Assembly (NCBI RefSeq): GCF_007993755.1
Contig: NZ_CP042467.1
Coordinates: 1,464,001-1,528,000, forward strand
From: Microvenator marinus
Lineage (GTDB): Bacteria; Myxococcota_A; Bradymonadia; Bradymonadales; Bradymonadaceae
Direction of reading: 5' to 3'
DNA: 64,000 nt
The notes beneath the pieces were generated by a model that ran no database searches, was not told the DNA's origin, and was given only the letters and a program-made list of their open reading frames with translations. Both the position numbers and the translations under genes were made by a program. Numbering within the stretch: position 1 is the stretch's first letter; the number at the start of each line of letters is the position of its first letter. Shown here one piece after another: positions 11,488-30,637 of this stretch.

Positions 11488-12615
11488 TCACTCAAACTGC
11501 TTTAGGTAGGCACCTAGACGTGCGCCCGCTACCTCTAGTTTCGATTCTTCCACAGTGTAAGCTAAACGCAGATACCCCTCTGCGCCACTACCGAAACCAC
11601 TTCCTGGGATTGCCACAACATCGATCTCTTGAAGAATATTCAGTGCCAAAGGGTAAGAGCCACCAAACCGGTCCGACGCCGCGCGAACATCCAAGAGTAC
11701 GTAGAACGCGCCAGCAGCCACGGCTTCGGGCATTTGCGGCCACTCGGCCCTAAGCGCTTGAATCAACGTGTCCCTCCGAGCCGAGAAAATCTTAACCGCA
11801 GCCCGAGTATGCTCACCATGGACCGCGAGCGCCGTCGGAATCACATCTTGGATAGGAACAACGGCCGATGTCACCAGATGTTGATGAAGGCCCTTTAAAC
11901 CTTGCACAAAAGAAGGCTCAGCAATCAGCCAACCGAGCCGCCAACCCATCATCGAATGGCTTTTAGAAAGTCCGGAAAGCCTGATGACCGAACTTTTCGA
12001 AGCCTCAAAGGCAGAAAAGTGTACGCCTTCGTAAACGAAGTCCTCGTAAATCTCGTCGGATATAATCGTGATCTCACGTTCTTCGCACCACTCAACGAGC
12101 TTGCGAATCTCGGCCTCGGAGAACACTGCTCCGGTTGGATTGCCAGGCGAGTTTATGATGATCGCCTTGACTCCGTCTTCCCAACTCGCCTCGATGCGCT
12201 GCAAATCAAGTGACCAATCGCTGCCGAGTTCATAATAGACTGGGGTCGCGTGAGCCGCCCTTACGAGGTTCGGATAAGCAGGAAACCCCGGGTTTGGTAC
12301 GAGAACTTTCTGGCCCGGTTCCACAAGACCAAGTACGCTCAACGCCAGTCCCTCTTGTACACCCGCGGTTATCAAAACCGAATCCAAGTCCACGCCATAA
12401 TGGTCGGCCACCGCCTTACGAGCTTGAAGGGTACCGAGGTTTGGCCCGTAGTTGGCAAGCGGAGCAATCGCATCGCGGATAGCCTCAAGAACGCTGGGAT
12501 GCATGGGAGTATCAGGCTGACCTAGTCCAAGGTGCAAACTCTGGGGACCCGCACGTTCCGTCAAGTCTCGGATCGCAGAAGGAATAATGGCTTCGGCACG
12601 AGACGAGGGCTTCAT
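11488..12615 (-). CDS. PLP aminotransferase, probably N-succinyldiaminopimelate aminotransferase
   Basis: A protein of 375 residues of the class I/II aspartate aminotransferase fold. Visible are the S-P-G-N-P-T-G block, S-D-E-I-Y-E-D and the PLP lysine in L-S-G-L-S-K-S-H-S-M. A downstream R-L-A-Y arginine would bind the substrate carboxylate. It overlaps dapD by 4 bases, and succinyl-diaminopimelate aminotransferase (DapC) acts directly after DapD in lysine and peptidoglycan precursor synthesis. DapC is therefore the likely role by context. A general aspartate or alanine aminotransferase cannot be excluded from sequence alone. Confidence 0.85.
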   Translation of the reverse strand: MKPSSRAEAIIPSAIRDLTERAGPQSLHLGLGQPDTPMHPSVLEAIRDAIAPLANYGPNLGTLQARKAVADHYGVDLDSVLITAGVQEGLALSVLGLVEPGQKVLVPNPGFPAYPNLVRAAHATPVYYELGSDWSLDLQRIEASWEDGVKAIIINSPGNPTGAVFSEAEIRKLVEWCEEREITIISDEIYEDFVYEGVHFSAFEASKSSVIRLSGLSKSHSMMGWRLGWLIAEPSFVQGLKGLHQHLVTSAVVPIQDVIPTALAVHGEHTRAAVKIFSARRDTLIQALRAEWPQMPEAVAAGAFYVLLDVRAASDRFGGSYPLALNILQEIDVVAIPGSGFGSGAEGYLRLAYTVEESKLEVAGARLGAYLKQFE

Positions 12616-13454
12616 CGAAGAAGTTCCTCGAGGGCTGTGCGCGAATCTGTCTTTTCGTCGCGGTACTTGATGATCAGCAACGCGGCCATTTGTAGCCCGT
12701 GCTTTTGGGCAAAGTCCCCTTTTGCGGGTCTAGATCCCGGCACAACTACGGCGTTCGCCGGGATTTCTAAGGGCCTTTCGTCGGTGGAACGAAGGACTCT
12801 TTCGTTGACCAAGTCGTAGACTGGAACTGACGCGGTTACCACACACCCCGAAGCCAACACGGCGCCTTTGCGCACGCGCACACCCTCGTAGACGCCACAA
12901 TTTCCGCCGAGCATCACGCCATCTTCAATGATTACAGGTGTCTGGCCGATAGGCTCCAGAACACCACCAATCTGAACGCCGGCAGATATATGCACGTTGT
13001 TGCCCACCTGGGCACAGCTGCCCACCAGAGCGTGACTGTCGATGATGGTTCCGTCGCCTACCCACGCCCCCACGTTGACGAACGCTGGCGGCATCATGAC
13101 CACATTTCTTCCGATGTAGGAGCCTCGTCGGATCGAGTTTCCACCCGGGACAATTCTGATATTGCGCTCCACAACCGGCAGGTCTTGGATTGGAAACGTG
13201 TGTTTATCGCTAAATTGAAGGGGCTCTCGCGCCATCTCAATGGTTTTCCCAAGTCTAAACCCAAGCAAGATCCCCTTCTTCACTGCGGCGTTGACGTGCC
13301 ATTCGCCGTGCTCGTCTTGCTCCGCTGCCCGCAGGTCTCCGGCCTCAAGGGCCGAGAGAAAGTGCTCGAGAACCTCATGTGAAGACTCATCAAGAGCCGA
13401 AGGATCGCGGGAAAAGTGGGTTTCGACTGCTTCCAAAATGGCTTGTTTACTCAT
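12612..13454 (-). CDS. dapD: 2,3,4,5-tetrahydrodipicolinate N-succinyltransferase
   Basis: A protein of 280 residues, close to the usual 274. The ATG was chosen because GGAG lies 7 bases upstream and the N-terminus S-K-Q-A-I-L-E-A-V-E fits the family; a 22-residue longer reading does not. The C-terminal two thirds are a left-handed beta helix of hexapeptide repeats (I-R-R-G-S-Y-I-G-R-N-V-V and on to I-I-E-D-G-V-M-L-G-G-N-C-G). The enzyme transfers a succinyl group from succinyl-CoA to tetrahydrodipicolinate on the way to meso-diaminopimelate and lysine. It leads an operon with the DapC-like aminotransferase and two membrane-linked genes. Confidence 0.95.
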   Translation of the reverse strand: MSKQAILEAVETHFSRDPSALDESSHEVLEHFLSALEAGDLRAAEQDEHGEWHVNAAVKKGILLGFRLGKTIEMAREPLQFSDKHTFPIQDLPVVERNIRIVPGGNSIRRGSYIGRNVVMMPPAFVNVGAWVGDGTIIDSHALVGSCAQVGNNVHISAGVQIGGVLEPIGQTPVIIEDGVMLGGNCGVYEGVRVRKGAVLASGCVVTASVPVYDLVNERVLRSTDERPLEIPANAVVVPGSRPAKGDFAQKHGLQMAALLIIKYRDEKTDSRTALEELLR

Positions 13455-29138: not shown

Positions 29139-29777
29139 CTAACGAACCGTGCCTTCGCGAGAGTGTATCCAGCCCAATGCGTCGAGGTCGAAGCCGGCGG
29201 TGTTGCCCTCACCGGGTAGAGTCTTCAAATCCTCAATTTTCACATATCGGGCCCAGCCAAGGTTCAACTCGCCCAAGTCGAACGCATCACCACCGGTGAC
29301 CGTGGGATCCAAAGGCTCTCCTGGGACATACTCGAACTCCAATACGGGGTTCCAACCTGCACATCCCTCCTTGGATTCAGCAGGCACACAGTCCCACGTG
29401 TGCCACTCCTCGAGGTCCTGTGACACGCTGACTCTGCCGAACTCCTCGAAAGGTTCAGTGGGGTCACCTCCCGCAAAAAACGGGTTTTCGAAAACGATGA
29501 AATCCGCACCAGGACCATTGGCAAATTCGCCGAGGTCCATAACGATCTCTCCGCCGACACCAAGGCTTAGAACTCGCATGCCGCCTCGCGAAATCCCACC
29601 ACCCTCAGGGGGACCAAGGACGATGTCTGGAAACTCATGGTCGCCGTAACCTGCAAACTCGCCCGGTTCAAACGAGACGACCTCACGGGCAAACGGACCG
29701 AAATCCTTTGCCGGTTCGATATCTTCGCCACATCCCCCCAGGCATGCAGCTATCAATGAAAATACGACCGCTCTCAC
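29139..29777 (-). CDS. B12-riboswitch-controlled lipoprotein, second gene
   Basis: A protein of 212 residues. The GTG start overlaps the stop of the previous gene (GTGA) and gives a lipoprotein signal (C-L-G-G-C). The mature part has a run typical of a family labelled only 'cell surface protein': I-V-L-G-P-P-E-G-G-G, D-F-I-V-F-E-N-P-F-F-A-G-G-D-P, V-S-V-S-Q-D, C-A-G-W and G-G-D-A-F-D-L-G-E. It looks like a beta-sandwich with possible metal or ligand loops. Being under a cobalamin riboswitch, it may help capture or deliver B12 at the surface; that is inference. No transporter or barrel gene is beside it. Confidence 0.8.
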   Translation of the reverse strand: MRAVVFSLIAACLGGCGEDIEPAKDFGPFAREVVSFEPGEFAGYGDHEFPDIVLGPPEGGGISRGGMRVLSLGVGGEIVMDLGEFANGPGADFIVFENPFFAGGDPTEPFEEFGRVSVSQDLEEWHTWDCVPAESKEGCAGWNPVLEFEYVPGEPLDPTVTGGDAFDLGELNLGWARYVKIEDLKTLPGEGNTAGFDLDALGWIHSREGTVR

Positions 29778-30217
29778 TTGCGTGTCATCATCGTCCAAGA
29801 GAAGCCACCGCAACCGGCGCCTTCCAAGTCACTCGAGTCGGCCGTGGCCGATGCCTCGAGAGCGGCTTGTTCGGACTCCTCTCCAAATGTCACAGTGCAG
29901 TAGTAGAAGACGTCTGCTTCGATTTCGGTCCACTCGATCCGGTTGAACAACCCCGGGTCGAAGTCGGCATCTTCGGCGTTTTGGGTGACGGCCACGTTGG
30001 CGTCATTGTCGAAGAACACGACGTTCTGGAAGTCTCCCCAGGTGGTTTCGGTGATGGTTTCGGAGGTTCCGAAATTCGTGTCCCATTCTCCGACAACTTC
30101 TAGGGAATCTTCGGCACACATCGTGCCGCAATCCTCAGCGGGTTTGTCGTCCTCGCCGCATGCGACAAGGGAGAGAGAGAGTGCACAAGAAACGAAAAAA
30201 GCTCGGTGTTGGAACAT
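29774..30217 (-). CDS. B12-riboswitch-controlled lipoprotein, first gene
   Basis: A protein of 147 residues. The ATG was chosen because GGAG lies 6 bases upstream and the signal ends L-S-L-V-A-C, a good lipobox. The mature part has several Cys (C-G-T-M-C, Y-Y-C-T-V, G-C-G-G-F-S-W) and a central T-T-W-G-D-F, F-F-D-N-D-A-N and F-N-R-I-E-W-T. No named family was recognised. It is the first gene after the cobalamin riboswitch and is linked to the second lipoprotein by a 4-base overlap. A role tied to B12 supply or to a B12-dependent need is likely from the control alone. Confidence 0.82.
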   Translation of the reverse strand: MFQHRAFFVSCALSLSLVACGEDDKPAEDCGTMCAEDSLEVVGEWDTNFGTSETITETTWGDFQNVVFFDNDANVAVTQNAEDADFDPGLFNRIEWTEIEADVFYYCTVTFGEESEQAALEASATADSSDLEGAGCGGFSWTMMTRK

Positions 30218-30295
30218 GACGTTCTCCAATTTTGGCCGAGCGAAAGCAGGGGGAACCATTCCCTCTCGCTTCCGACCCGAAGCGGGGTGTATCTG
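30218..30295 (-). promoter_or_regulatory. Expression platform between riboswitch and lipoprotein gene
   Basis: On the minus strand CGCTTC and GAAGCG can form a 6-bp hairpin. The same GAAGCG can instead start a longer imperfect stem ending in CCCCCTGCTTTCGC. The two are mutually exclusive. No T-run follows, so control of translation is more likely than termination. The gene's GGAG site is within this stretch. Confidence 0.5.
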
Positions 30296-30437
30296 ACGTG
30301 TTGCGCCAATATCCTGGCTTGCGGGTCATCCTCTTTCGGCACCTTCCCAGTTTCCCAGTGGTTTAAGCCGAATTCGTCACCGCTTACAGTTGCGGGGGCA
30401 GCGTTGGTTTTTCACCAAACTTCCTGTCGCAACACGT
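30296..30437 (-). promoter_or_regulatory. Cobalamin (B12) riboswitch
   Basis: Read on the minus strand, the conserved blocks occur in order: GGTGAAAAACC, GCTGCCCCCGCAACTGTAA, CCACTGGGAAACTGGGAAGG, GAGGATGACC and GCCAGGATATTGGC. The ends ACGTGTTGCG and CGCAACACGT close a 10-bp P1 stem. Binding of adenosyl- or methylcobalamin normally shuts the downstream gene off. The RNA is directly upstream of two overlapping lipoprotein genes. Confidence 0.95.
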
Positions 30438-30453
30438 TTAACTTGGAGCGGGG

Positions 30454-30484: not shown

Positions 30485-30637
30485 CTATTCTTTTTCGTCC
30501 TCCTCCGCCGCTTCGATCATCTCTTCGACTTCTCGAGCGTGCTCATCGCCAATCTTTTCGCGCATCTCACCAAGGGCGCGTTTGGCTTCAAAGGCTGTTA
30601 GTTTATCACGTTGAAAGTCTACACATATCAGACACAT
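30485..30637 (-). CDS. Small 50-residue protein with an N-terminal C-x-x-C
   Basis: The product starts MCLICVDFQRDKLTAFEA and is 50 residues long. AGGAGG lies 5 bases before the ATG, one of the best ribosome sites in the window, so I take this as real. After the C-x-x-C (Cys2, Cys5) comes a charged, probably helical body (A-L-G-E-M-R-E-K-I-G, then E-E-M-I-E-A-A-E-E-D-E-K-E). The two Cys could bind metal or be redox active. It may be transcribed into the riboswitch unit, but that RNA has its own promoter candidate. The family was not recognised with certainty. Confidence 0.75.
   Translation of the reverse strand: MCLICVDFQRDKLTAFEAKRALGEMREKIGDEHAREVEEMIEAAEEDEKE

Follow-up and report, generated by a model that had tools for sequence, protein, structure and literature searches.

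A cobalamin riboswitch upstream of a conserved lipoprotein pair that includes a probable divergent relative of BtuH in Microvenator marinus

A cobalamin riboswitch precedes two overlapping lipoprotein genes

The window analysed here is a stretch of 64 kb of Microvenator marinus DNA, and unprefixed positions refer to it. On its minus strand lie a cobalamin riboswitch and, immediately downstream, two lipoprotein genes that we term P1 and P2. The features are arranged as follows.

30287..30447, minus strand: cobalamin riboswitch aptamer (RF00174; cmscan 90.6 bits, E 4e-21)
30218..30286, minus strand: leader from the aptamer to the P1 start; the sequence shows a hairpin (GAAGCGAGAGGGAA...UUCCCCCUGCUUUCGCU) and, as ribosome-binding site, GGAG
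29774..30217, minus strand: P1, a LIC13354-like lipoprotein of 147 aa with a small beta-rich domain; ATG at 30217, GGAG upstream
29139..29777, minus strand: P2, a LIC_13355-like lipoprotein of 212 aa with a putative compact BtuH-type domain; GTG start

A first-pass annotation of this DNA had proposed a B12 riboswitch ahead of two overlapping lipoprotein genes. The riboswitch is real. The RF00174 covariance model matches at 30287-30447 with a score far above its gathering threshold of 31.5 bits, and the match covers the full model (1-189) with all core elements. This is the sole match in an Rfam scan of the window, and a scan of the whole genome with RF00174 recovers it together with one further site (C1:4810154-4810281). 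Both lipoprotein genes are present as well, and the GTG of P2 at 29777 shares 4 nt (GTGA) with the stop codon of P1. The P2 start originally proposed, a TTG at 29813, was dropped in favor of this GTG, which overlaps the P1 stop. Signal sequences resembling lipoboxes can be recognized by eye in both proteins (...SLVAC in P1 and ...CLGGC in P2). Given the 4-nt overlap, P1 and P2 are likely to be carried on a single transcript and to be translationally coupled.

A search of the minus strand between the aptamer and the P1 start revealed no site resembling an intrinsic terminator, and for this reason control of translation is likelier than control of termination; the riboswitch probably acts at the former level. 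Folding of a 111-nt segment at the leader yielded a structure no more stable than those of shuffled sequences (z -0.81), and no expression platform was discerned. That result is the only point in favor of the view that the riboswitch is decayed or unrelated to the genes and occupies its position by accident. We regard this view as scarcely credible, since the aptamer scores 90.6 bits with every core element in place, its position is conserved in most genomes of the organism's own family that carry the gene pair, and the comparative data described below contradict it.

Two further features were observed upstream of the aptamer. A 50-aa reading frame (MCLICVDFQRDKLTAFEAKRALGEM...) at 30485-30637 on the minus strand ends about 37 nt ahead of it, and between the two lies the sequence TTGACG-15 nt-TGATAG, a possible promoter of the riboswitch transcript.

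Both protein families follow B12 riboswitches in many genomes

P2 has homologues in 148 of the 284 genomes examined from the phylum, and P1 has homologues in 100 of the 284. We searched 109 of these genomes for RF00174, blind to the positions of the proteins; a P2 place is on record for 108 of them. A riboswitch resides on the same strand within 2.5 kb upstream of P2 in 70 of these 108 loci, and within 8 kb in 74. By our own arithmetic, which takes about 1.7 riboswitches per 6-Mb genome, approximately 0.04 such placements are expected by chance. P1 exhibits the same association (60 of 75 loci with RF00174 within 3 kb upstream), including where it does not stand beside P2: in 16 of 24 such cases it has a riboswitch of its own, located 77-1050 nt upstream.

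A second sample was drawn from 84,980 species genomes; it was selected by P2 alone and partly overlaps the first. With a covariance model that had been partly trained on the same loci, a riboswitch was found upstream of P2 in 55 of 80 loci (within 2 kb in 50 of them), and 67 of 70 riboswitch matches are on the P2 strand. We rechecked eight loci that were not in the training set, and Rfam itself confirmed the riboswitch in all eight. About a third of P2 loci carry no nearby riboswitch (34 of 108 in the first draw, 25 of 80 in the second). Some of these lie on truncated contigs; others have 9 kb of sequence in which none of Rfam's B12 RNA families gave a match.

The linkage of P2 to B12 riboswitches thus recurs over many families of the phylum. 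Had homologues mostly been found without this RNA, the idea of a cobalamin-capture role put forward in the first-pass annotation would have suffered; the opposite is observed for P2 in both draws and for P1 taken by itself. That homologues of both proteins follow the riboswitch suggests that the idea is largely right.

Homologues are fused to each other and adjoin btuB

P1 usually lies directly upstream of P2 (51 of the 72 genomes with both), sometimes in two or three copies, and in several genomes P1 and P2 form one open reading frame. Two loci (L133 and L134) have, downstream of a riboswitch, a gene for a P1-P1-P2 lipoprotein that stands immediately before one for a BtuB-like TonB receptor. 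A third locus (L135) has two riboswitches, one for a P1-P2 fusion and one for a btuB-like gene. A BtuB-like receptor occurs near P2 in more than 20 of the loci examined, and in three (L006, L009 and L018) a beta-propeller lipoprotein directly follows P2. The earlier description of the genes as a module not linked to a local transporter holds for the window locus, but not for the homologues that adjoin btuB in other genomes.

Several of these loci have additional features. Those of Corallococcus and relatives (L060, L074, L085 and L090) hold two or three B12 riboswitches on one strand, in a region of roughly 7 kb that includes btuB and P2. In L097, a P1 homologue (12329-12667, minus strand) has its own B12 riboswitch (13141-13283, minus strand) on the strand opposite the btuB and P2 genes of that locus. 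The records L061 and L108, entered under the names Comamonas sp. KCTC 72670 and Bifidobacterium breve, contain B12 loci that look myxobacterial, and they are probably mislabelled or misbinned.

P1 and P2 resemble two families of Leptospira proteins

Pfam returned nothing for P1 or P2 and only chance-level names for their relatives (27 P2 and 12 P1 proteins), and searches of PDB with the single sequences produced matches at chance level only. NCBIfam models are more informative. P2 matches NF033170, the LIC_13355 family lipoprotein (E 1.2e-7; 31.2 bits, under the curated cut-off of 120 bits), and so do all 27 of its relatives at E <= 0.01. By this sequence comparison, P2 is related to the LIC_13355 family yet stands outside that subfamily. 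P1 matches NF047669, the LIC13354 family exoprotein (E 2.6e-6; 27.8 bits, under the curated cut-off of 130 bits), as do 31 of 38 relatives at E <= 0.01.

P1 and P2 therefore each resemble one of two Leptospira proteins. Because LIC13354 and LIC_13355 have consecutive locus numbers, the pair seems to have been kept in phyla that are far apart; a scan of genome contigs yielded no Leptospira locus, and the basis for this link is published papers and the NCBIfam models. The cobT gene of L. borgpetersenii (LBJ_RS15545) lies two locus tags from the LIC_13355 gene (LBJ_RS15535), and the expression of LBJ_RS15530, 15535, 15540 and 15545 rises or falls together when strains are compared (PMC8055020). 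Leptospires are stated to require vitamin B12 in vitro (PMC3953431). Our literature search found no paper that ties the LIC13354 or LIC_13355 family to B12. In contrast to the role considered here, LIC_13355 has been described as a host-binding adhesin in a 2024 study in which the recombinant, refolded protein binds laminin and plasminogen and B12 is unmentioned (PMC11891782).

P2 is a remote homologue of the BtuH domain

The AlphaFold model of P2 (pLDDT 95) was compared with PDB structures using Foldseek. The first-ranked match is 8blw_B, BtuG1 of Bacteroides thetaiotaomicron (E 3.2e-4, a moderate TMq of 0.53, with a high rmsd), a protein whose C-terminal part is a BtuH domain (PMC10404256). 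When PDB sequences were searched with profiles, the same motif gave weak matches to 8blw_B (E 0.16) and to 7biz, which is BtuH2 with B12 (E 0.49). The P2 profile was also aligned with BtuH B12-binding domains by hhalign, and the result was a probability of 96.7% (E 4.2e-10, score 71.6), with the confident alignment confined to the N-terminal 89 columns, or about the N-terminal half. Control scores were 14.6 for the reversed profile and at most 21.6 for 60 column shuffles. The BtuH profile was built from eight real BtuH domains, whose sources were plasmid records of Bacteroidota and 'phage' records from faeces; on plasmids, no P2 homologues were matched. The P2 HMM also matches BtuH-type proteins of Persicobacter (E 5e-11 and 7e-10, in a small set of reading frames), one of which is a stand-alone gene ahead of a TonB receptor and a DUF5074 gene.

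These profile and model comparisons support the conclusion that P2 and the BtuH domain are related by descent, with P2 a divergent relative. The first-pass annotation had likened the proteins to BtuG and BtuH in role but not in sequence, which for P2 and BtuH proves too cautious. P2 resembles BtuH of B. thetaiotaomicron (BtuH2 BT_1956, PDB 7BIZ; BtuG1 H-domain, PDB 8BLW) as a lipoprotein in B12 riboswitch loci with a genetic link to btuB and a homologous jelly roll, whose SLG-GG...DF...N-F core includes the positions of Asn399 and Phe401. In contrast to BtuH, P2 is smaller (about 180 aa against about 250-270 aa) and has no PKD or propeller domain. It also seems to be without several corrin-contact loops, carries a Cys pair that is conserved, and occurs paired or fused with P1.

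The BtuH2 numbering used here is borne out by every one of the eight contact residues that have been published (PMC8941943). Two of them, Asn399, which contacts the phosphate, and Phe401, which contacts the lower base (PMC8941943), align with the invariant Asn and the near-invariant Phe of the VFENPF motif in P2. The position of Gln333 is not kept, and the corrin contacts Tyr510, Trp511, His476 and Trp577 lie beyond the confident alignment or in loops that P2 seems to be without. Because these corrin contacts are not kept or their loops are apparently absent, the binding mode of P2 may differ from that of BtuH2, or P1 may complete the site.

The loss of some BtuH2 contact residues would also fit a function for P1 and P2 in the B12 regulon that does not involve cobalamin binding, either as B12-independent structural or assembly partners of BtuB or in the uptake of cobalt or a lower-ligand base. 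Such a function predicts the same riboswitch and btuB linkage, and it is in line with the position of the Leptospira homologue near cobT, a lower-ligand gene. We nevertheless judge it unlikely, because P2 is homologous to a B12-binding domain and keeps both positions of the nucleotide-loop contacts.

A second alternative sees in P2 a generic jelly roll of the F5/8 type C or CBM32-like kind, an adhesin for sugars or host proteins that came under B12 control by chance. Generic F5/8-type and discoidin/CBM32 jelly rolls are close behind 8blw_B in the Foldseek list, with many such matches following; two of 27 P2 members match the Pfam F5_F8_type_C model weakly; and laminin and plasminogen binding has been reported for LIC_13355 (PMC11891782). 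However, BtuH matches better in both sequence profile and fold, the published LIC_13355 binding was obtained with refolded protein and without mention of B12, and B12 riboswitch linkage across many families of the phylum argues against a chance association. This alternative is therefore very improbable, and we favor a cobalamin-binding jelly roll.

Other lipoproteins offer a useful comparison. BtuJ/DUF4465 proteins resemble P2 as beta-jelly-roll lipoproteins in riboswitch-regulated loci, and they bind B12 (PMC12751083, PMC13398666), but none of 27 P2 or 12 P1 proteins has a Pfam DUF4465 match. BtuG, a surface lipoprotein of B12 uptake loci, has a YncE/DUF5074 propeller, whereas the AlphaFold models show no propeller in P1 or P2. 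BtuH-type capture is known from gut Bacteroidetes, with a few Firmicutes homologues noted (PMC8941943). In Bacteroides finegoldii (L126 918-3681), a DUF4465 gene adjoins a BtuH gene, which places two types of B12 binder in one locus; by analogy, P1 and P2 may share a locus in the same manner. Four faecal records titled 'Bacteriophage sp.' (L129-L132; MT835658, MT836240, MT836597 and MT835494) carry Bacteroidales-type BtuG/BtuH genes and are probably pieces of bacterial chromosomes.

P1 is most likely a new partner domain

The AlphaFold model of P1 (pLDDT 89) is small and beta-rich, and it matched no fold in PDB (best E 0.96). A streptavidin-like profile match (E 0.64) was put down to chance. 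A Cys pair and many aromatic residues are conserved among P1 relatives. Because P1 has its own riboswitch linkage and is fused to P2 in some genomes, it would appear to be tied to cobalamin, most likely as a new partner domain of P2.

A second riboswitch operon and the cobalamin economy of the source genome

The further RF00174 site in the genome heads a second operon.

L113 9274-14297, minus strand in L113 (C1 about 4805270-4810300): second B12-riboswitch operon, with its riboswitch at C1:4810154-4810281

This operon encodes a btuB-like TonB-dependent receptor, a beta-propeller lipoprotein, a cobalamin adenosyltransferase (Cob_adeno_trans) and then a lycopene-cyclase-like protein. The propeller lipoprotein that accompanies the btuB-like gene recalls BtuG, although no sequence tie to BtuG was found. 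CbiC, a marker of corrin synthesis, was sought in the genome and is absent, and seven matches to B12-binding domains exceed their cut-off. From these few markers, the bacterium appears to use cobalamin and to obtain it by import.

Proposed function of the operon

We are fairly confident of the following model. When intracellular cobalamin is plentiful, the riboswitch would repress the two-gene operon, acting as an OFF switch. P1 and P2 would consequently be made when cobalamin is scarce, as outer-membrane lipoproteins that are predicted to be exposed at the surface and to capture cobalamin. P2 would serve as a minimal form of the cobalamin-binding jelly roll of BtuH, standing on its own, and P1, which forms one polypeptide with P2 in relatives, as its small beta-rich partner. 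Captured cobalamin could then be passed to the TonB-dependent receptor encoded by the second B12-riboswitch operon elsewhere in the genome.

A more speculative extension, which we hold as a tentative possibility that is somewhat more doubtful than not, is that P1 and the LIC13354 family represent a new cobalamin-handling domain without a solved structural relative, that P1 and P2 form a two-part clamp around cobalamin, and that B12 scavenging of this kind is widespread outside Bacteroidota, including in Leptospira.

The findings point to a compact version of BtuH and a new partner domain throughout Myxococcota, with relatives in Planctomycetes, in Hydrogenedens genomes and in the Leptospira families. 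They provide a testable B12 function for two conserved families of unknown function. They also suggest that LIC_13355, reported as a binder of laminin and plasminogen, may primarily serve B12 acquisition. M. marinus and many of its relatives, apparently including Leptospira, probably scavenge B12 with P1 and P2.
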